A stretch of 64,000 nt of DNA, taken from Rhodothermus marinus. Its GTDB lineage: Bacteria > Bacteroidota > Rhodothermia > Rhodothermales > Rhodothermaceae. Position numbers and translations under genes: made by a program. The notes under the pieces were generated by a model. The model was given only the letters and a program-made list of their open reading frames with translations. It did no database searches and was not told the origin of the DNA. Each line of letters opens with the position of its first letter. Position 1 is the stretch's first letter. This document shows, piece by piece, positions 1,383 to 11,412 of this stretch. The stretch is taken from the NCBI RefSeq assembly GCF_009936275.1, contig NZ_AP019797.1:921501-985500 (forward strand), given 5' to 3'.

Positions 1383-3695
1383 TCAGGCTGTGACCAGCGC
1401 AGCCTGGAAGGCTTCACTGCCGCGGAGACGCTGCGTTTCCATGCGCACCAGCTCGCCCACATCCAGAATCATGATCACCCGACCGTCGCCGAGGATCGTG
1501 GTCCCGGCCACGCCGGGCACCTTCTTGAGGTAGTTGCCCAGCGGCTTAATCACGATTTCCTTCTGGCCGATCAGATCGTCCACGATCAGGCCCAGGCGAT
1601 GGTGGGCGATGCCCACAATGACGGCGTAGGCGCGCTCGGGATGGTACGTCCAGCCAGGTACCTGCAGCATTTCGCCCACGCGCAGCAGTGGAATGACCGC
1701 GTCGCGCAGGCGGATGACTTCGCGGCCTTTGATGGTGTATACCGTGTCGGGCTCGAGCCCGACCACTTCAATGACCGAATGCAGCGGAATGGCGAAGGCT
1801 TCTTCGCCCACGCGCACCAGCAGGCTCTGGATGATGGCCAGCGTCAGCGGCAGCTTGAGCGTGAAGCGCGTGCCCTGACCGGGCACCGAGTGGACGCTGA
1901 TGGTGCCGTTCAGTTTGGTGATGTTGGTCTTGACCACGTCCATGCCCACGCCCCGACCTGATACTTTGCTGACGCGCTGGGCCGTGCTGAAGCCGGCCCG
2001 GAAAATAAGCTCCAGCGCTTCGCGGTCGCTCATCTCGGCCGCTTCTTTTTCGGTAATGAGGCCCTTTTCCAGGGCCTTGGCCTTGAGTTTCTCCGGATCG
2101 ATGCCGGCGCCGTCGTCTTCGATTTCGATGACGATGTGGTTGCCCTCCTGCGAGGCGGCCAGTCGAATGCGGCCGGTAGGCGACTTGCCCCGGGCGCGGC
2201 GTGTTTCGGGATCCTCGATGCCGTGGTCGGCGGCATTCCGGATCAGGTGCACCAGCGGATCGCTGATTTCTTCGATGAGCGACTTGTCCAGCTCGGTCTC
2301 TTCGCCCTCGATGATCAGCTCGATCTGCTTGTCGAACTCGCGGGCCAGATCGCGCACCAGGCGCGGAAACTTGTTGAACACGCGGCCGATCTGCACCATG
2401 CGCGTGTGCATGACGGCCGACTGCAGCTCGGTGGTGATGAAGTCGATCTGGGTGGTCGTGTCGGCCAGCTCGCGGAGCAGCTCGGCGTTGTCGCCGTCGG
2501 TGCTCAGTTCGCTGAGGAGCTGCAGCAGCCGGTTGCGGCCCAGCACCAGCTCGCCCACCAGATCCATGAGGTTGTCGAGGCGGCGCACCTCGACACGGAT
2601 TGTCTCGGTGCTCTGATCCCGACGGGCGGCCTGTCCGTTGCCCGAAGGCGCCGAAGCGGCCGGGGTCGATCGGGACGTATCGGCTGTCTCCGAAGCAGGT
2701 GCCGTGGCCGGTGGCGTGGTCCGGGCTTCCGGCGTGGGCGCTGCAGGCGCCGACTCGGAGCGGGCGGGTGCCGGCTTGCCCTCGGCAATCGCCTGAAGTC
2801 TTTCGATGGCGGCGCCGATGGGCAGCGGTTGCAGGTTGCGGGTTTCGACCTGCTGGAGGAGTTGTTTCATCAGGTCGAAGGCGTCGAAGAGGACGTCCAT
2901 CATGGTGGGCTCGAAGGCGAGCGTGCCTTTGCGGAGGCGGTTGAGGACGTCCTCGAAGTGGTGGGCCAGGAGGCTGAGCTGTTCGAGGCTGAGGAAGCCG
3001 GAGGTGCCTTTGACGGTGTGGACGGCGCGGAAGATTTTGTCGACGAGCTGACGGTCGTCGGGGGTTTTTTCGAGCTGGAGCAGGTCGTGCTCCAGGTCTT
3101 CGAAGATTTCGCGGGTCTCGACGATGAAGCTCTCGACAATCTCCCGCACCTCCTCCGAAAAGAGCGTCTCGGCCAGGGCCTCCAGGGCGGCGGCCTCCTG
3201 GGGGGCAGCAGGCGCAGATTGCGCAGGAGTCGGTGCCGATGGTTCCTGAGGAGCGGTTGGGGTCGTTTTATCGGCGCTTCCGGCTGCAGCCTCCTCGTCG
3301 GCCAGCGCTTTGAGCTTACGCAGGATGTCCTCCAGCGGAATGGGCTGGAGGTTGCGCTCCTCGACCTGGTGGAGGAGTTGTTTCATCAGGTCGAAGGCTT
3401 CGAAGAGGATGTCCATCATGGCGGGCTCGAAGGCGAGCGTGCCTTTGCGGAGGCGGTTGAGGACGTCCTCGAAGTGGTGGGCCAGGAGGCTGAGTTGTTC
3501 GAGGCTGAGGAAGCCGGAGGTGCCTTTGACGGTGTGGACGGCGCGGAAGATTTTGTCGACGAGCTGACGGTCGTCGGGGGTTTTTTCGAGCTGGAGCAGG
3601 TCGTGCTCCAGGTCTTCGAAGATTTCGCGGGTCTCGACGATGAAGCTCTCGACAATCTCCCGCATCTCCTCCGAAAAAATAGGATGCTCGCTCAT
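1383..3695 (-). CDS. cheA: Chemotaxis histidine kinase CheA with two tandem P1 (HPt) domains
   Basis: 770 residues. Domain order is P1a (about 7-112, phosphoacceptor H54 in AVHTVKGTSGF), an Ala/Pro/Thr-rich linker, P1b (about 179-284, H226 in the same motif), a second low-complexity linker, P3 dimerisation (about 366-430), the P4 ATPase and the P5 CheW-like domain (about 620-760). P4 shows the N box LIRNAADHGIE (485-495), the G1 motif DDGAGID (527-533) and the G2 motif GRGVGMD (580-586). No P2 (CheY/CheB docking) domain is recognisable; the linkers are too low in complexity. It autophosphorylates and feeds CheY and CheB. The two P1 segments are almost identical in both protein and DNA, which indicates recent duplication or ongoing homogenisation. 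Confidence 0.96.
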   Translation of the reverse strand: MSEHPIFSEEMREIVESFIVETREIFEDLEHDLLQLEKTPDDRQLVDKIFRAVHTVKGTSGFLSLEQLSLLAHHFEDVLNRLRKGTLAFEPAMMDILFEAFDLMKQLLHQVEERNLQPIPLEDILRKLKALADEEAAAGSADKTTPTAPQEPSAPTPAQSAPAAPQEAAALEALAETLFSEEVREIVESFIVETREIFEDLEHDLLQLEKTPDDRQLVDKIFRAVHTVKGTSGFLSLEQLSLLAHHFEDVLNRLRKGTLAFEPTMMDVLFDAFDLMKQLLQQVETRNLQPLPIGAAIERLQAIAEGKPAPARSESAPAAPTPEARTTPPATAPASETADTSRSTPAASAPSGNGQAARRDQSTETIRVEVRRLDNLMDLVGELVLGRNRLLQLLSELSTDGDNAELLRELADTTTQIDFITTELQSAVMHTRMVQIGRVFNKFPRLVRDLAREFDKQIELIIEGEETELDKSLIEEISDPLVHLIRNAADHGIEDPETRRARGKSPTGRIRLAASQEGNHIVIEIEDDGAGIDPEKLKAKALEKGLITEKEAAEMSDREALELIFRAGFSTAQRVSKVSGRGVGMDVVKTNITKLNGTISVHSVPGQGTRFTLKLPLTLAIIQSLLVRVGEEAFAIPLHSVIEVVGLEPDTVYTIKGREVIRLRDAVIPLLRVGEMLQVPGWTYHPERAYAVIVGIAHHRLGLIVDDLIGQKEIVIKPLGNYLKKVPGVAGTTILGDGRVIMILDVGELVRMETQRLRGSEAFQAALVTA
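2844..3161 (-). repeat. cheA P1 repeat, copy 2
   Basis: 318-base segment coding CheA residues 179-284. It is nearly identical to the segment 516 bases upstream in the gene (3360-3677). Differences are limited to scattered substitutions, for example an alanine to threonine change near the end. Confidence 0.9.
3360..3677 (-). repeat. cheA P1 repeat, copy 1
   Basis: Segment coding CheA residues 7-112, the partner of the direct repeat at 2844-3161. Both copies keep the phosphoacceptor histidine. Confidence 0.9.
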
Positions 3696-3725: not shown

Positions 3726-4736
3726 TCAGCGATTCGAGTCGTTCCGCTTCGGATTGAACAGGGCATCGATTTCGTCCTGGGAGGCGGGAGTGCTTCCGCC
3801 GCCGAACAGGGCGTCGATTTCATCCTGGGAGGCAGGGGTACTTCCGCCGCCGAACAGGGCGTCGATTTCGTCCTGGGAGGTCGGGGTGCCGCCGCTGAAC
3901 AGACCATCGATTTCGTCCTGCGAGGCGGGAGCGCTGTTTCCGTTAAAGAGCGCGTCGATTTCTTCCTGCGAGGCCGGTCCAGCGGCTTCGTCATCCTGAG
4001 ACAGCGGGGCGGTGTATTGCAGGGCGTTGACCAGAGCATCGACACGCTGCTGGCGGCTACCATCCCGGTCGTAGCGGGCGTGGGGATCGAACGTCCCTTC
4101 GGCAAAGAGCTGTCGGGGTAGCTCCAGATCGTCGAGCACTTCGCTACCCAGCCGTCGGATAAGCTGGGCCATGCGATACCGCACCGACTCGATCAGGTGG
4201 TTGACGGCGGCCAGCTGCTGGGCCGTGATGTCCTGCACCTGCAGCGCCATCATGATGCGGTTCATGCGTTCGCGCAGCGAGTCAATCAGCTGCTGCTGGC
4301 TTTCCAGCATGGCCTGCAGCGTGGCATAATGCTGCCGGCGTTCTTCCAGCAGCGTCTGGAGCTGCTTGTGCCAGCTCTCCGGAAGCGGCTGCCACAGCTG
4401 CTCCTCCTGGGATTGCAGCGTCTGGAGCGCCTCGGGTGCCGCGGCCCAGGACTTTCTGAACGTATCCAGGTCATTCAGCACCACGTCGATCAGGTCGAGG
4501 ATCTCCGTGGTGGCCATTTCGGTGGCCTGCGTGACGCTTTTGAGCTGCGAGCTGGCCCGCGGCATTTTGCGGGTGCTTTCGGCCAGCGAGTCGTTGACCT
4601 CCGAGAGGAGCGGGGAGATCTCCCGGAGGAAATAGACCACCTCTTCTATGAACGGAATGGCCCGTTGGCCGAGAATGAAGACGGCGCGCAGCTCGTTCAG
4701 CTTGGAAAGCAGCTCCTGTATGTGATTGGTCGTCAT
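3726..4736 (-). CDS. cheZ: CheZ-family CheY-P phosphatase with five C-terminal CheY-binding-like repeats
   Basis: 336 residues, against about 214 for E. coli CheZ. The helical body (about 1-205) contains QDITAQQ with D169 and Q173, matching the catalytic Asp and Gln of the CheZ QDLTGQ motif. After a spacer (205-250) the tail holds five copies of an SQ(D/E)EID(A/G)LF motif, at residues 255-264, 271-280, 286-295, 302-311 and 318-327, separated by short Gly/Ser/Thr/Pro linkers. E. coli CheZ ends in one similar CheY-binding helix, and FliM begins with one (SQAEIDALL). I infer a multivalent CheY-P tether on a phosphatase that ends the signal. The gene sits between cheY and cheA; 10 bases separate its start from the end of cheY. 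Confidence 0.9.
   Translation of the reverse strand: MTTNHIQELLSKLNELRAVFILGQRAIPFIEEVVYFLREISPLLSEVNDSLAESTRKMPRASSQLKSVTQATEMATTEILDLIDVVLNDLDTFRKSWAAAPEALQTLQSQEEQLWQPLPESWHKQLQTLLEERRQHYATLQAMLESQQQLIDSLRERMNRIMMALQVQDITAQQLAAVNHLIESVRYRMAQLIRRLGSEVLDDLELPRQLFAEGTFDPHARYDRDGSRQQRVDALVNALQYTAPLSQDDEAAGPASQEEIDALFNGNSAPASQDEIDGLFSGGTPTSQDEIDALFGGGSTPASQDEIDALFGGGSTPASQDEIDALFNPKRNDSNR
3756..3974 (-). repeat. In-frame tandem repeat in the cheZ tail (5 units of about 45-48 bases)
   Basis: The units encode SQDEIDALF-type motifs with a protein period of 15-16 residues. The last three units are almost identical, including GGGSTPA linkers, so copy number could change by slippage or unequal recombination. 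Confidence 0.9.
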
Positions 4737-4746
4737 TGCGGCCTCC

Positions 4747-5127
4747 TCAGGCGGTTTTCAGAATCAGGTTGATCTTTTCGCGGAGCACTTCCGGCGTAAA
4801 GGGCTTGACGATGTAGTTGTTGACGCGGGCCTGCATCGCGGCGATCACGTCCTCCTTCATCCCGCGTGTGGTGACCATCAGGATCGGCAGGTTGCCGAAG
4901 CGGGCGTGGCTGCGAATGGCTTTCGTCAGCTCCAGCCCGTTCATGTTGGGCATGTTCCAGTCGGTGATGACGAAGTCGATGGAGCCCTGCTCCAGTTTTT
5001 CCAGGGCATCGGCCCCATCGCTGGCCTCGACCACGTCGGTGTAGCCGATCTCGCGCAGCGCGTTGCAGACGATGCGCCGCATCGTGGGGGAATCATCGAC
5101 GACCAGGAACGTCATGGCTTCGCTCAT
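4747..5127 (-). CDS. cheY: Chemotaxis response regulator CheY (motor-type)
   Basis: 126 residues, a single receiver domain. The acidic pair D11/D12, phosphoacceptor D56 in TDWNMPNMNGL, T86/T87 and K108 in VKPF are all present. DDSPTMRRIV and WNMPNM are typical of motor-binding CheY of the E. coli kind. It is phosphorylated by CheA, binds the switch protein FliM and is dephosphorylated by CheZ. It lies directly upstream of cheZ, with a second stand-alone receiver gene just before it. FliM is not in this window. Confidence 0.94.
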   Translation of the reverse strand: MSEAMTFLVVDDSPTMRRIVCNALREIGYTDVVEASDGADALEKLEQGSIDFVITDWNMPNMNGLELTKAIRSHARFGNLPILMVTTRGMKEDVIAAMQARVNNYIVKPFTPEVLREKINLILKTA

Positions 5128-5148: not shown

Positions 5149-5514
5149 TCAGGAGATAAACTTGGACACTTCGTACTGCAGTCGTTGCGCGTCGAAGGGT
5201 TTGGTCAGGTAGGCCTGCACGCCCAGTTGCTGGCTCTGGCTGACCAGCTCGGCATCTTCGAGCGAAGACAGCACCAGGATCGGGATGTGGGCGTACTCCG
5301 GGTCGGAGCGCAGCGCCTGCACCAGACCGATCCCGTCCATCTTGGGCATGTTCAGGTCGGTAATGACCAGATCGACCGGCGTCTGGGCAATTTTTTCCAG
5401 CGCTTCCAGGCCGTCGCAGGCCGTCAGCACCGTGAGGCCCTGGGCCCGCAGAGCAAACGTGACGAACTTGCGGGCCGTGCTGGAGTCGTCGACGACGAGA
5501 ACCGTCTTAGCCAT
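5149..5514 (-). CDS. Second single-domain CheY-like response regulator
   Basis: 121 residues from the ATG at 5514; this start gives the usual MAKTVLVVDDSS opening and overlaps the last 8 bases of cheR. It has the receiver residues D9/D10, the phosphoacceptor in TDLNMPKMDG and the conserved lysine in TKPF. It differs from its neighbour outside the active site, for example LRAQGLTVLTACDG and LSSLEDAEL. It may be a phosphate sink, a second motor input or the regulator of another output; the sequence does not decide. It is translationally coupled to cheR by the overlap. Confidence 0.92.
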   Translation of the reverse strand: MAKTVLVVDDSSTARKFVTFALRAQGLTVLTACDGLEALEKIAQTPVDLVITDLNMPKMDGIGLVQALRSDPEYAHIPILVLSSLEDAELVSQSQQLGVQAYLTKPFDAQRLQYEVSKFIS

Positions 5515-6400
5515 GGCGATACGGGCTATTTTCGGAAGCTTCGGCTTCTTTTCGGTAAACAATGGCCTTGCCAAAACGCACCGGCTGGAAGGCCTGGCTG
5601 ATGCCGTAAAGGGTCTCCGAGAACCCGATAAACAGGTAGCCGCCCGGTACCAGACTCCGGTAGAATGACTGGACCACGCGGCGCTTCATATTATCGTCGA
5701 AATAGATGAGAACATTAGCGCAGATGATTAAATCGAAATTGCGCATGGCATTCATGGCGACCGCATCGGCCAGGTTCAACACCTGGAATTTCACCATCTT
5801 GCGAATTTCCTCGCGGACCTGGTAGCGATCGCCCTGCCGGACGAAATAGCGTTGAAGATATTCAGGCGGCACGTTGCGGATGGCATAGTCGCCGTAGATC
5901 CCCTGCTGGGCCTGCTGGAGCACGTTCGTGTTGATGTCGGTGCCGATGATCTCGAAGCGGGCATAGGGATGGCGCGGGAGAATGCGATCCCGCAGAAAAA
6001 TGGCCAGCGTGTAGGGCTCTTCGCCGCTGGAGCAGCCCGCACTCCAGATGCGGATCTGGTGTCTGGTGCGCAGCCATTCAGGCAGGATGTGCTGCTCGAG
6101 CACTTCCAGATGGCCGGGCGCGCGAAAGAAATAGGTTTCGTTGATGGTGATGGCGTTGACCAGATGACGGAATTCCTCCCGCGCCTGGCCGTTCTGCAGA
6201 GCATGCAGGTAGGCCCGGCCGTTCGGCAGGCGGAGTTCATTCAGGCGGCGTCCGACCCGGCTTTCCAGCAGATAGCGCTTGTTGTCCTGAAAGTAGATGC
6301 CGGTCTTTTCGTAGATCAGCTGGCGCAACTGCTGGAATTCTGCGTCCGAAAGGACGCCCTGTTGTTGCGGGGTCAGGGGTAGGCGTGCCAGCAGACTCAT
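5507..6400 (-). CDS. cheR: Chemotaxis protein methyltransferase CheR
   Basis: 297 residues. The N-terminal helical domain (LRQLIYEKTGIYF through NAITINETYFFR) is followed by an S-adenosylmethionine-binding methyltransferase domain with SAGCSSGEEPY (motif I), GTDIN, and ICANVLIYFD. It methylates receptor glutamates and opposes CheB. The N-terminal extension is short and no beta-subdomain anomaly is visible. Its stop codon lies within the start region of the following cheY-like gene. The gene begins 15 bases after the HEAT-repeat gene. Confidence 0.96.
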   Translation of the reverse strand: MSLLARLPLTPQQQGVLSDAEFQQLRQLIYEKTGIYFQDNKRYLLESRVGRRLNELRLPNGRAYLHALQNGQAREEFRHLVNAITINETYFFRAPGHLEVLEQHILPEWLRTRHQIRIWSAGCSSGEEPYTLAIFLRDRILPRHPYARFEIIGTDINTNVLQQAQQGIYGDYAIRNVPPEYLQRYFVRQGDRYQVREEIRKMVKFQVLNLADAVAMNAMRNFDLIICANVLIYFDDNMKRRVVQSFYRSLVPGGYLFIGFSETLYGISQAFQPVRFGKAIVYRKEAEASENSPYRHG

Positions 6401-6415
6401 GGCGGTACGGGGTTG

Positions 6416-7681
6416 TCAGGGCTGGTAGGCAGAACTACGGCGGGCCGTGCAGAGCGCGTCGTCGGCATAGTGGCGCACGGCCGGATCGGGGTCATGCAAT
6501 CCCTGCTGAACCAGAGCAAAGAAGGCGGGGTGCTGCAGCTGCAGGCCCAGTGTGATGGCCGCCATTTTGGTTTCGGCATCGAGGCTTTCGAAGTGGGCCT
6601 GAAGGAACTGGGCCGCCTGCGGCAGCTGGAAGTCGTCCAGGCAGCCGTGGGTCAGGAGCGCGATGGCAAAGCCTGCGGCCGCGTCGAGCGACATCCGACC
6701 CGTTTCGGCGCAGCGGGCCACACAGGCGAATGCCGTGGGGTAGGTGGAGATGGCTTCGAACAGGGCCAGGTCCAGCTCGTCGTGCTGCCCCGCATGCTCC
6801 AGCATGGCCTCGATGGTCGCCTCGTCGAGCATGTGGCGCAGGCCACGCACGGCCGCTTTTTTGAAGCTCAGATCGGGCTCCTGAAGCATTTCCAGCAGGT
6901 AGGGACGGAGCCGTTCTGGTAGGGGAGGGATCGGCCCGGTGGCCGATTCGTAGGCCTCGATCAGGTCGTAGAGCACTAAGGGACGGGCTTCGGGCGTGGC
7001 CTGCTCGACCTGGCGCAGCAGCAGATGCAGCACTTCAGGAATCGGATACCGCGAGAGCGCTTCGGCGGCGGCGTACTGAACGACCGGATCCGGATCGTTC
7101 AGGGCCGCCTCAATAAGCTGCAGCCCGCGTGCATCCCGGAACGTCCCCAGCGCCGCCAGGATGTGCGGCCGCTCGGCTGGGTAGAACCGATAGCGTTCGC
7201 GCAGCACCGGGGCGTACTCGGTAGCCCCCAGCGCGGCCAGCGCATCGATGGCGGCCAGGCGGACGTTCGTGTCCGGATCGTCCAGCCGGGCCGCGATGCG
7301 ATCGACTACGTCGTAGGCCGGGAGCTGCGCCAGGACGTCGATGGCAAACTTGCGCGCGTCCGCATCGTCGATGTCCACGTAGGGCAGGAGCGCCTGAATC
7401 GACGGCGCGCCGATGCGGACGAGCACCTCGCCGGCCAGGTTGCGCACAGGCAACTCGGGATGCTGGATGAGCGGCACCACCGCCCGGGCCGCTTCCTCGG
7501 TGCCGATGGCCACCAGATGCTCGGCCGCGGCTTCGCGAATGCCCGGATCGGGATCCTGCAGGCAGTGGGCCGCGACCGGAATCGTTTCGGCGGGCGTGTG
7601 GGTGGCCAGCAACTCGTTCAGCGCATCCAGACGAACAGACGGATCCGGATGCTGCAGACCTTCAGGCAGCATCATCGACAT
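6416..7681 (-). CDS. HEAT-repeat (PBS-lyase-like) protein in the chemotaxis operon
   Basis: 421 residues made almost entirely of alpha-helical HEAT/EZ-type repeats of about 30 residues. Repeated patterns such as HPDPSVRLDAL, DPDPGIREAAAEHL, HPELPVRNLAGEVL, DPDTNVRLAAIDAL, DPDPVVQYAAAEAL and DPDPAVRHYADDAL run along most of the length. No signal peptide, membrane segment or catalytic motif is seen. Such solenoids usually act as protein-binding scaffolds. It sits between cheW and cheR, so I infer an accessory role in the signalling array or adaptation, but no substrate or partner can be named. Confidence 0.88.
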   Translation of the reverse strand: MSMMLPEGLQHPDPSVRLDALNELLATHTPAETIPVAAHCLQDPDPGIREAAAEHLVAIGTEEAARAVVPLIQHPELPVRNLAGEVLVRIGAPSIQALLPYVDIDDADARKFAIDVLAQLPAYDVVDRIAARLDDPDTNVRLAAIDALAALGATEYAPVLRERYRFYPAERPHILAALGTFRDARGLQLIEAALNDPDPVVQYAAAEALSRYPIPEVLHLLLRQVEQATPEARPLVLYDLIEAYESATGPIPPLPERLRPYLLEMLQEPDLSFKKAAVRGLRHMLDEATIEAMLEHAGQHDELDLALFEAISTYPTAFACVARCAETGRMSLDAAAGFAIALLTHGCLDDFQLPQAAQFLQAHFESLDAETKMAAITLGLQLQHPAFFALVQQGLHDPDPAVRHYADDALCTARRSSAYQP

Positions 7682-8350: not shown

Positions 8351-8806
8351 CGCTTATCGTTTGAGCTGGACGAGTTCCTGGAGCATTTCGTCGGAAGTCG
8401 TGATGATGCGGGCCGAGGCCTGGTAGCCGCGCTGCGTGACGATCATGTCGGTGAACTCGGTGGCCAGGTCCACGTTGCTCATCTCGAGCGTACCGGCCAC
8501 GATCACCGTGCGGTTCAGCTCGACGCCGGCGCGTCCCAGGGCCAGATCGCCCGAGGAGCTGGTCAGGCTCCAGAGGTTGTCGCCGACCTGTTGCAGGCCG
8601 TTGACGTTGTTAACGGACCCGAGGGCCAGTTGATAGATTTTTTGCTGGTAGCCGTTGGAGAAGTTGAGTTCGACGATGCCTTCCTGGTTGATGCTGAAGC
8701 CGATGAGGGAGCCGGGGGGTTGGCCGTCCTGGTCGCGGACGGTGGCGGTGGTGGAGCCGGCGTACTGGGTGAGGGCATCGTCGGCCCCCGCCAGGTTCAG
8801 CGTGAA
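8351..8806 (-). repeat. Hook-gene 3' repeat, copy in flgE2
   Basis: About 456 bases, nearly identical to 10162-10617, with a few silent differences. It codes the C-terminal part of the hook protein. Confidence 0.92.
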
Positions 8807-10030
8807 AGTCTCATCTAGGCCATCCCCATTGAAATCCAGAGATACCGGCAATGTGAGTTCCCCGTCACCGCTCAGATCGTCAATCAGACCGCCATCGACC
8901 GCACGGATTTCTGTGAGCGTTCCCTGGGTGTCATAAATCAACTTGGCCAGATACCCGGTGTGAAGCGGCTGACCGTCCCGATCCAGAATCCGCAATGCCC
9001 ATTCGTCCTGGGGGTCGCCGTTTTCCAGCGAGTTGATCCGTGTAAATTCCAGAATTACCGACGAATCTTTCCCCTGTGCATCGTAAACGACCGTGGAAAT
9101 GGTCACCTTTTCGCCAATCTCCTGGAGCTCCAGACCAATCGGGTTTGCTGGACTGCTGCTCGACAACGGTTCAAAGGTAAAAGAAATTGGGAAGGGTGTG
9201 ATAGAGCCGCTACCGTCGGGATCGTAGTTGTTGACCGTCAACTGAAATGTCGAGGGATCATCCGGGTCGGAAGCCGGAATTTCAGTGATGGTCACGCCTG
9301 AATCTGAGCTGCTCATGCTGGAGATATTCCAGTCTTCATCAAACGTGATTTGAATGTCTGTGGCAATAACCTGGCCATTCTCATCGATGATGCTTCCCGT
9401 CCATTCGTAGATATCATTCCGTTCTACCTGAAAAGTAAACGTAGGATAAAACGGATTATCCGAGGAGATGGTCAACGATACGGGGTCCTGGGTGCTGGCT
9501 TCCGCATTGAGGTTGCCGCGGACGTAGATGTTTTCGGTTTGTTTGGGGGGAGCGGTGGCGCTGAAGGGAACGCGCACGTCTTCGAGCGCGGCCGAGCGCA
9601 GCTCACCGTTTTCATCGAAAGCCCAGCCCTGCACCTGCAAACCGCTGTTGGTCACCAGTTCACCAAAGCGGTTGATCGTGAAATTGCCGGCGCGCGTCAG
9701 GTAGATGCGATCCCCGCCACGGACGACGAAGAACCCGTCGCCGTTGATGCCCAGGTCGGTGGCCACGCCGGTGTTTTCGAGGGCGCCCTGGGCGAAGTTC
9801 ACATCGATCGAACCCACCGAGACGCCCAGCCCGACGTAGGCGGGGTTGATGCCACGGCCGCCGGCGGTGCGGCCCACACCCAGCAGCGTCTGGCCGAGCA
9901 GTTCGTTGAAGGCGGCGCGGCCGCGTTTGAAGGCGGTGGTGTTGACGTTGGCGATGTTGTTGGAGATGACGTCCATGCGGACCTGATGGCTTTTGAGTCC
10001 GGAGACGCCGGTGCGCAGAGAGCGAATCAT
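8354..10030 (-). CDS. flgE: Flagellar hook protein FlgE, second copy with enlarged central domain
   Basis: 558 residues. The N-terminal rod/hook domain (MIRSLRTGVSGLKSHQ, then NNIANVNTTAFKRGRA) and the C-terminal domain (ending ITTSDEMLQELVQLKR) match the upstream copy at 10165-11412. The first 177 residues are the same, and the last 158 or so agree. The centre (about residues 178-408, bases 8807-9499) is unrelated in most of its length to that of the first copy, about 143 residues longer, and noticeably less GC-rich. The hook is the universal joint between rod and filament; its central domains are surface exposed. The two genes may form a mixed hook, alternative hooks, or one may be a different rod/hook member; N and C termini favour FlgE. 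Confidence 0.92.
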   Translation of the reverse strand: MIRSLRTGVSGLKSHQVRMDVISNNIANVNTTAFKRGRAAFNELLGQTLLGVGRTAGGRGINPAYVGLGVSVGSIDVNFAQGALENTGVATDLGINGDGFFVVRGGDRIYLTRAGNFTINRFGELVTNSGLQVQGWAFDENGELRSAALEDVRVPFSATAPPKQTENIYVRGNLNAEASTQDPVSLTISSDNPFYPTFTFQVERNDIYEWTGSIIDENGQVIATDIQITFDEDWNISSMSSSDSGVTITEIPASDPDDPSTFQLTVNNYDPDGSGSITPFPISFTFEPLSSSSPANPIGLELQEIGEKVTISTVVYDAQGKDSSVILEFTRINSLENGDPQDEWALRILDRDGQPLHTGYLAKLIYDTQGTLTEIRAVDGGLIDDLSGDGELTLPVSLDFNGDGLDETFTLNLAGADDALTQYAGSTTATVRDQDGQPPGSLIGFSINQEGIVELNFSNGYQQKIYQLALGSVNNVNGLQQVGDNLWSLTSSSGDLALGRAGVELNRTVIVAGTLEMSNVDLATEFTDMIVTQRGYQASARIITTSDEMLQELVQLKR

Positions 10031-10161: not shown

Positions 10162-10617
10162 CGCTTATCGTTTGAGCTGGACGAGTTCCTGGAGCATTTC
10201 GTCGGAAGTCGTGATGATGCGGGCCGAGGCCTGGTAGCCGCGCTGCGTGACGATCATGTCGGTAAATTCCGTGGCCAGGTCCACGTTGCTCATCTCGAGC
10301 GTACCGGCCACGATCACCGTGCGGTTGAGTTCGACGCCGGCGCGGCCCAGGGCCAGATCGCCCGAGGAGCTGGTCAGGCTCCAGAGGTTGTCGCCGACCT
10401 GTTGCAGGCCGTTGACGTTGTTAACGGACCCGAGGGCCAGTTGATAGATTTTTTGCTGGTAGCCGTTGGAGAAGTTGAGTTCGACGATGCCTTCCTGGTT
10501 GATGCTGAAGCCGATGAGGGAGCCGGGGGGTTGGCCGTCCTGGTCGCGGACGGTGGCGGTGGTGGAGCCGGCGTACTGGGTGAGGGCATCGTCGGCCCCC
10601 GCCAGGTTCAGCGTGAA
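10162..10617 (-). repeat. Hook-gene 3' repeat, copy in flgE1
   Basis: Partner of 8351-8806. Confidence 0.92.
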
Positions 10618-11412
10618 GCTTTCCAGAGTGCCATCATTGTCGATGTCCCAGTCGAACGTCTGGAGCGCTTCGGTGGGATCCAGGTTGCCCTGCGTGTCGA
10701 AGGTGATCAGGTTATCGCCACTGGTAATCGTAACACCCAGGGGATTCCCGTCTTCGTCCAGCAAATTCCATTGCCATTCGTTGGGATTGGAGGTTCTTGT
10801 AAATTCAATGATGATGGTTTTGGCTTTCCCCTGCGGATCATACACGACGGTAGAGACCGTCACGCTTTCGCCGGCTGCCAATTCCGCATTGAGGTTGCCG
10901 CGGACGTAGATGTTTTCGGTTTGTTTGGGGGGAGCGGTGGCGCTGAAGGGAACGCGCACGTCTTCGAGCGCGGCCGAGCGCAGCTCACCGTTTTCATCGA
11001 AAGCCCAGCCCTGCACCTGCAAACCGCTGTTGGTCACCAGTTCACCAAAGCGGTTGATCGTGAAATTGCCGGCGCGCGTCAGGTAGATGCGATCCCCGCC
11101 ACGGACGACGAAGAACCCGTCGCCGTTGATGCCCAGGTCGGTGGCCACGCCGGTGTTTTCGAGGGCGCCCTGGGCGAAGTTCACATCGATCGAACCCACC
11201 GAGACGCCCAGCCCGACGTAGGCGGGGTTGATGCCACGGCCGCCGGCGGTGCGGCCCACACCCAGCAGCGTCTGGCCGAGCAGTTCGTTGAAGGCGGCGC
11301 GGCCGCGTTTGAAGGCGGTGGTGTTGACGTTGGCGATGTTGTTGGAGATGACGTCCATGCGGACCTGATGGCTTTTGAGTCCGGAGACGCCGGTGCGCAG
11401 AGAGCGAATCAT
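10165..11412 (-). CDS. flgE: Flagellar hook protein FlgE, first copy
   Basis: 415 residues, an ordinary FlgE length. It has the flagellar rod/hook N-terminal motif, a beta-rich middle with VSTVVYDPQGK and the FLG-C-terminal segment with EMSNVDLATEFTDMIVTQRGYQ. It follows flgD and the flagellar operon protein, the normal order for hook assembly genes. It is followed after 134 bases by a second hook gene with near-identical ends. The centre between the shared flanks (about residues 178-265) is short compared with the second copy. Secreted through the flagellar export apparatus, so no signal peptide is present. Confidence 0.95.
   Translation of the reverse strand: MIRSLRTGVSGLKSHQVRMDVISNNIANVNTTAFKRGRAAFNELLGQTLLGVGRTAGGRGINPAYVGLGVSVGSIDVNFAQGALENTGVATDLGINGDGFFVVRGGDRIYLTRAGNFTINRFGELVTNSGLQVQGWAFDENGELRSAALEDVRVPFSATAPPKQTENIYVRGNLNAELAAGESVTVSTVVYDPQGKAKTIIIEFTRTSNPNEWQWNLLDEDGNPLGVTITSGDNLITFDTQGNLDPTEALQTFDWDIDNDGTLESFTLNLAGADDALTQYAGSTTATVRDQDGQPPGSLIGFSINQEGIVELNFSNGYQQKIYQLALGSVNNVNGLQQVGDNLWSLTSSSGDLALGRAGVELNRTVIVAGTLEMSNVDLATEFTDMIVTQRGYQASARIITTSDEMLQELVQLKR

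Follow-up and report, generated by a model that had tools for sequence, protein, structure and literature searches.

CheY-P-bridged CheZ oligomers with cooperative activity have been a matter of debate since 1996. The best-described CheZ, that of Escherichia coli (1KMI), consists of a long helical hairpin with the catalytic residues D143 and Q147, a flexible linker, and a single motif, SQDQVDDLL, at the extreme C terminus. This tail motif is the main docking site for CheY-P, and a flexible tether links it to the hairpin (PMC1447658); the exchange Q204L within it reportedly lowers phosphatase activity (PMC12270135). A related CheY-binding peptide is present once, at the N terminus of FliM on the motor switch; its I-D pair was mutated in Caulobacter to abolish binding of a CheY homolog (PMC7534056), and an affinity of ~27 µM for activated CheY is the value quoted in PMC9126983. 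Lipkow (2006) proposed that CheY-P bridges CheZ dimers into oligomers (PMC1447658), and oligomerization of E. coli CheZ is disputed (PMC2673030).

The window (the whole stretch of DNA that was analyzed, 64,000 nucleotides of Rhodothermus marinus) contains a chemotaxis cluster in the order cheR (assigned from its sequence), stand-alone receiver gene, cheY, cheZ, cheA, and cheB (Table 1). The cheZ ORF starts with ATG and encodes 336 amino acids. A profile search gave a match to Pfam PF04344 with 42.6 bits (cutoff, 30.7) and an E value of 8.1e-11, and E. coli CheZ (1kmi_Z) was the top PDB match in a search with the family profile (E = 0.0012); the family profile was required, since the single sequence gave no significant match in the PDB. 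Scores for the NCBIfam equivalogs "protein phosphatase CheZ" were below the cutoffs (24.0 versus 350 bits for NF041271 and 20.3 versus 257 bits for NF008368), and the protein is, judged by these profiles, a divergent member of the Pfam CheZ family outside both equivalogs. The catalytic residues D169 and Q173, said to be kept in the preliminary description of the locus, are unchanged in 26 of 26 relatives and, in the alignment to 1KMI, correspond to the E. coli residues D143 and Q147. By family profile and catalytic pair, the protein is CheZ, with predicted phosphatase activity. Overall similarity to the E. coli protein is low, and instead of a single motif at the extreme C terminus, it carries five, with an LF ending and Gly/Ser linkers.

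Table 1. Features of the cheZ region (positions in the window)
Feature	Position	Strand	Basis
cheA, two near-identical Hpt domains	1383..3695	-	Pfam, DNA identity
cheZ (CheZ-family CheY-P phosphatase, five-motif C-terminal tail)	3726..4736 (3729-4736 also given)	-	ORF, Pfam, 1kmi_Z match
Motif 5, SQDEIDALF (residues 319-327)	3756..3782	-	Motif scan
Motif 4, SQDEIDALF (residues 303-311)	3804..3830	-	Motif scan
Motif 3, SQDEIDALF (residues 287-295)	3852..3878	-	Motif scan
Motif 2, SQDEIDGLF (residues 272-280)	3897..3923	-	Motif scan
Motif 1, SQEEIDALF (residues 256-264)	3945..3971	-	Motif scan
Conserved block FDPHARYDRDGSRQQRVDALVN (residues 216-237), upstream of array, degenerate-motif-like	4026..4091	-	Conservation in relatives
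Catalytic segment D169-x-x-x-Q173 (QVQDITAQ)	4218..4232	-	Invariance in relatives, alignment to E. coli
cheY (likely binding partner and substrate)	4747..5127	-	Pfam Response_reg, CheY structures, residue mapping

All five tandem SQ(D/E)EID(A/G)LF repeats that had been claimed for the end of the protein were located, between residues 256 and 327, with spacings of 16, 15, 16, and 16 residues and joined by short linkers of Gly, Ser, Thr, and Pro. The underlying DNA is a repeat as well (3756-3974; period, 48; 4.6 copies; 80% matches with TRF). Every copy fits the FliM/CheZ consensus S-Q-x-[DE]-[IV]-D-x-L-[LF], and so does the N terminus of FliM of the same genome (identified by Pfam), which begins MAKPLSQEEIDILL; a comparison with the host FliM had been suggested beforehand, and its peptide SQEEIDILL indeed matches the motif of CheZ. 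The pattern S-Q-[DE]-E-I-D occurs six times in the 3.43-Mb genome, with five copies in cheZ and one at the N terminus of FliM, the reversed control pattern occurs nowhere in it, and a relaxed pattern found the same six places in the whole genome and nothing beyond CheZ and FliM. The motif is not, then, a low-complexity tail of many unrelated proteins of this genome, the objection raised in the preliminary description, and its restriction to CheZ and FliM rules out a chance or low-complexity tail. An assembly or sequencing artifact is ruled out because the nearest genome of the same genus also has exactly five copies. Upstream of the array, the conserved block follows the pattern FDPxAxYDxxxxRQxxVDxLV, in which F216, A220, Q229, and D233 are invariant in 26 of 26 CheZs of the phylum; it is possibly a second, older contact to CheY.

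CheZ of this family has a long helical hairpin that makes a four-helix bundle in the dimer. In the AlphaFold model of CheZ (26 relatives), helices 3-115 and 120-199 form a long hairpin (block pLDDT, 61 to 92), and low-confidence disordered linkers with a short helix (227-240) follow after residue 199. Each motif is modeled as one short helix (257-265, 273-280, 288-296, 304-312, and 320-327), with confidence in the tail mostly 40 to 60; only around the last motif does it reach 75. The modeled tail has the appearance expected of tethered docking helices, at low confidence. Fold searches with the model returned many unrelated coiled coils and nothing specific.

The copies carry a record of selection. 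In eight CheZs from Rhodothermus and its order, the pooled within-protein pN/pS among motif copies was 0.11, with a pS of 0.52 and a pN of 0.057. In a comparison of 25 distinct motif units with the consensus unit, silent changes (77) outnumbered replacements (29), even though replacements make up 62 of the 79 possible single-base changes of the unit; as the copies share ancestry, the significance of this excess is only indicative, and its direction is clear. As most differences between the copies are silent, neither chance nor slippage free of selection accounts for the array, recent junk slippage being disfavored by the pN/pS of 0.11, and these ratios argue that the copies are mostly old and that their sequence is maintained by selection. 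Duplication is ongoing nevertheless, because copies 1 and 3 and their linkers are identical in DNA in another genome of the genus (L049). Copy number in genomes of the genus is 5, 5, 4, 4, 4, and 2, and since it ranges from 2 to 5, the exact number is not essential (the count for L021 is indeterminate, as a run of N starts within the array). Such variation, the identical copies of L049, and further recent duplications close by (the cheA Hpt domains and the flgE-like genes) would also be expected if only one motif were functional and the others were tolerated products of tandem duplication whose number drifts. However, redundant copies would have decayed, which does not fit the pN/pS of 0.11 at a pS of 0.52, and arrays recur in distant lineages; we regard drift as very unlikely.

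How unusual is a tail of five motifs? Motifs were counted downstream of the catalytic segment in the better-scoring loci and not in a random selection, and for a few sequences the degenerate RQxxVD block is part of the count. In Gammaproteobacteria, 29 of 30 CheZs had one motif and 1 had none. Among 84 alphaproteobacterial CheZs, 57 had one motif, 13 had two, 2 had three, and one each had four and seven, with none recognized in 10. Within the own phylum, 14 of 32 CheZs had one motif, and the remaining sequences had 0 to 5. Going by these counts, a CheZ tail normally carries one motif. A scan for three consecutive motifs in a genome collection of 84,980 species yielded 24 stretches, among them the CheZ arrays of Rhodothermus, Ponticaulis/Hyphomonadaceae, and an Azospirillaceae paralog; several others were acidic or coiled-coil low-complexity proteins without motif context. 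With two motifs as the query, 394 genomes of the own phylum gave matches only in Rhodothermus and in a single other genome of its order, all in CheZ. Both results are lower bounds, since the patterns required a CAG start and arrays starting with CAA were missed. Cohaesibacter CheZ paralogs have 2 to 3 motifs, and altogether, tails with 3 to 7 motifs are found in Rhodothermus and its order, Ponticaulis, the Azospirillaceae paralog, and Cohaesibacter. The Azospirillaceae paralog (L051) likewise has the catalytic motif followed by an array, of seven motifs from SQADVDTMF to DQSAIDALF, but it is alphaproteobacterial, its core is very distant, and its VD/ID and MF variants are unlike the Rhodothermus CheZ; its array is apparently an independent expansion. 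Multi-motif tails seem to have arisen in several lineages. The preliminary description knew of no CheZ with an array of this kind. Our literature search, which covered few subscription journals, also found no publication describing one, but the array is not unique, as alphaproteobacterial CheZs fairly often have two motifs and other lineages have arrays of three to seven. In sum, the CheZ of Rhodothermus is a real, selected, and recurrent elaboration of a known protein, with an apparently undescribed tail. The two to five interchangeable motifs within one genus offer a natural dose series for the question of CheZ oligomers and cooperativity, and the array is an example of a short bacterial signaling motif that turned multivalent under selection.

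What could the array be good for? In our model, which we consider probable, it is a multivalent docking tail that raises the capture of CheY-P per CheZ dimer and possibly bridges dimers. The single C-terminal docking peptide of CheZ would have been multiplied to five behind a disordered tether, and each motif would form a short helix on the α4-β5-α5 face of CheY-P, in the manner of the N-terminal FliM peptide and the tail peptide of E. coli CheZ. From there, CheY-P would be passed on to D169 and Q173 in the active site of either the same CheZ dimer or an adjacent one. With ten motifs per dimer, weakly binding CheY-P would more likely be tethered beside a catalytic site, part of the CheY-P would be kept off FliM, and CheY-P could bridge several CheZ dimers, for which the Lipkow oligomer model has two tail sites per dimer and the Rhodothermus CheZ up to ten. 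That each copy binds CheY-P, and at which site, we infer from homologs; the stoichiometry of binding and the avidity, buffering, and bridging by the array are inferences that go further. An illustrative equilibrium with E. coli values (Kd of 27 µM and 3 µM CheY-P), not taken from a thermophile, gives a probability of 0.17 with one motif and 0.48 with five that a dimer tethers one or more CheY-P molecules, and free CheY-P of 89% and 60%, respectively; if a single site is weak, more motifs per dimer raise capture.

The same estimate bears on a tail that acts mainly as a buffer or sponge, competes with FliM for CheY-P, and sets the working range of the motor, with little catalytic gain from the extra motifs. 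The motifs of CheZ are of the FliM type, and five of them would sequester ~40% of the CheY-P, versus ~11% for one, at a Kd of 27 µM. However, this illustrative figure depends strongly on the Kd, with ~16% bound at 100 µM, and a pure buffer needs no placement on a phosphatase. We hold buffering as the main role to be unlikely.

The candidate ligand is encoded next to cheZ. The cheY product is close to the CheY structures of E. coli and Helicobacter, with E values down to 1.7e-42, and keeps the switch residues D56, T86, Y105, and K108, equivalent to D57, T87, Y106, and K109 of E. coli CheY. A second stand-alone receiver is encoded at 5149-5574 and differs from CheY at several face positions. The copies might, instead of holding several molecules of one CheY, serve different receivers (CheY, the second stand-alone receiver, and other response regulators); the genome has 37 receiver-domain matches, two of them stand-alone receivers beside cheZ, and related arrays elsewhere sit in unrelated proteins. 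Among the five copies, though, three are identical and none lacks the core residues, which points to one type of ligand on the tail, and the divergence of the second receiver at the face adds to the case against this division of labor, which we judge to be quite unlikely.

CheA has two Hpt domains that arose by duplication (2827-3126 versus 3343-3642, 96% identical over 300 nt), and Pfam detected no P2/CheY-binding domain in it, even at an E value of 10. Since CheA has two Hpt domains and no detectable P2, it is imaginable, as a speculation, that CheZ may be the main docking scaffold for CheY. Elsewhere in the window, two adjacent genes for FlgE-like hook proteins (8354-10030 and 10165-11412) have ends that are 98 to 100% identical over 300 nt and middles that differ, and a gene for a HEAT-repeat protein (6416-7681) lies in the chemotaxis cluster between cheR and a cheW-like gene.

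A far-reaching extension of the docking model, to which we give only a small chance, is that arrays of FliM/CheZ-type motifs are a portable multivalent docking module for response regulators, with separate origins in the CheZs of Rhodothermus, Azospirillaceae, Ponticaulis, and Cohaesibacter, in a receiver-domain protein, in a zinc-ribbon membrane protein (4 to 9 copies), and in a Lon protease, and that the Rhodothermus array forms CheY-P-dependent networks of CheZ dimers, gives cooperative signal termination, and substitutes for the P2 domain absent from CheA.

The same motif arrays are present in unrelated proteins of Alphaproteobacteria and spirochetes. A protein of Cohaesibacter and other Hyphomicrobiales with an MJ0042-type zinc ribbon (L198:1300-2634(+), L201:1294-2715(+), and L205:973-2229(+)) has 4 to 9 copies of SQDDIDALF on linkers resembling DSPSGGG and probably contains a transmembrane segment; it is possibly a membrane-bound CheY-docking array. 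A receiver-domain protein (L227:1501-2247(+)) has a C-terminal tail with four ESQDDIDNMF motifs, and its sister (L228:1504-2037(-)) carries one; in an AlphaFold model of the former, run as a test of docking within the chain, the tail was disordered. The Lon protease of Treponema UBA1793 (L046:3487-6441(-)) has four FliM-like motifs (LTQSEIDKLV ... LTQEEIDKLF) in an insertion that separates the AAA+ lid from the protease domain.
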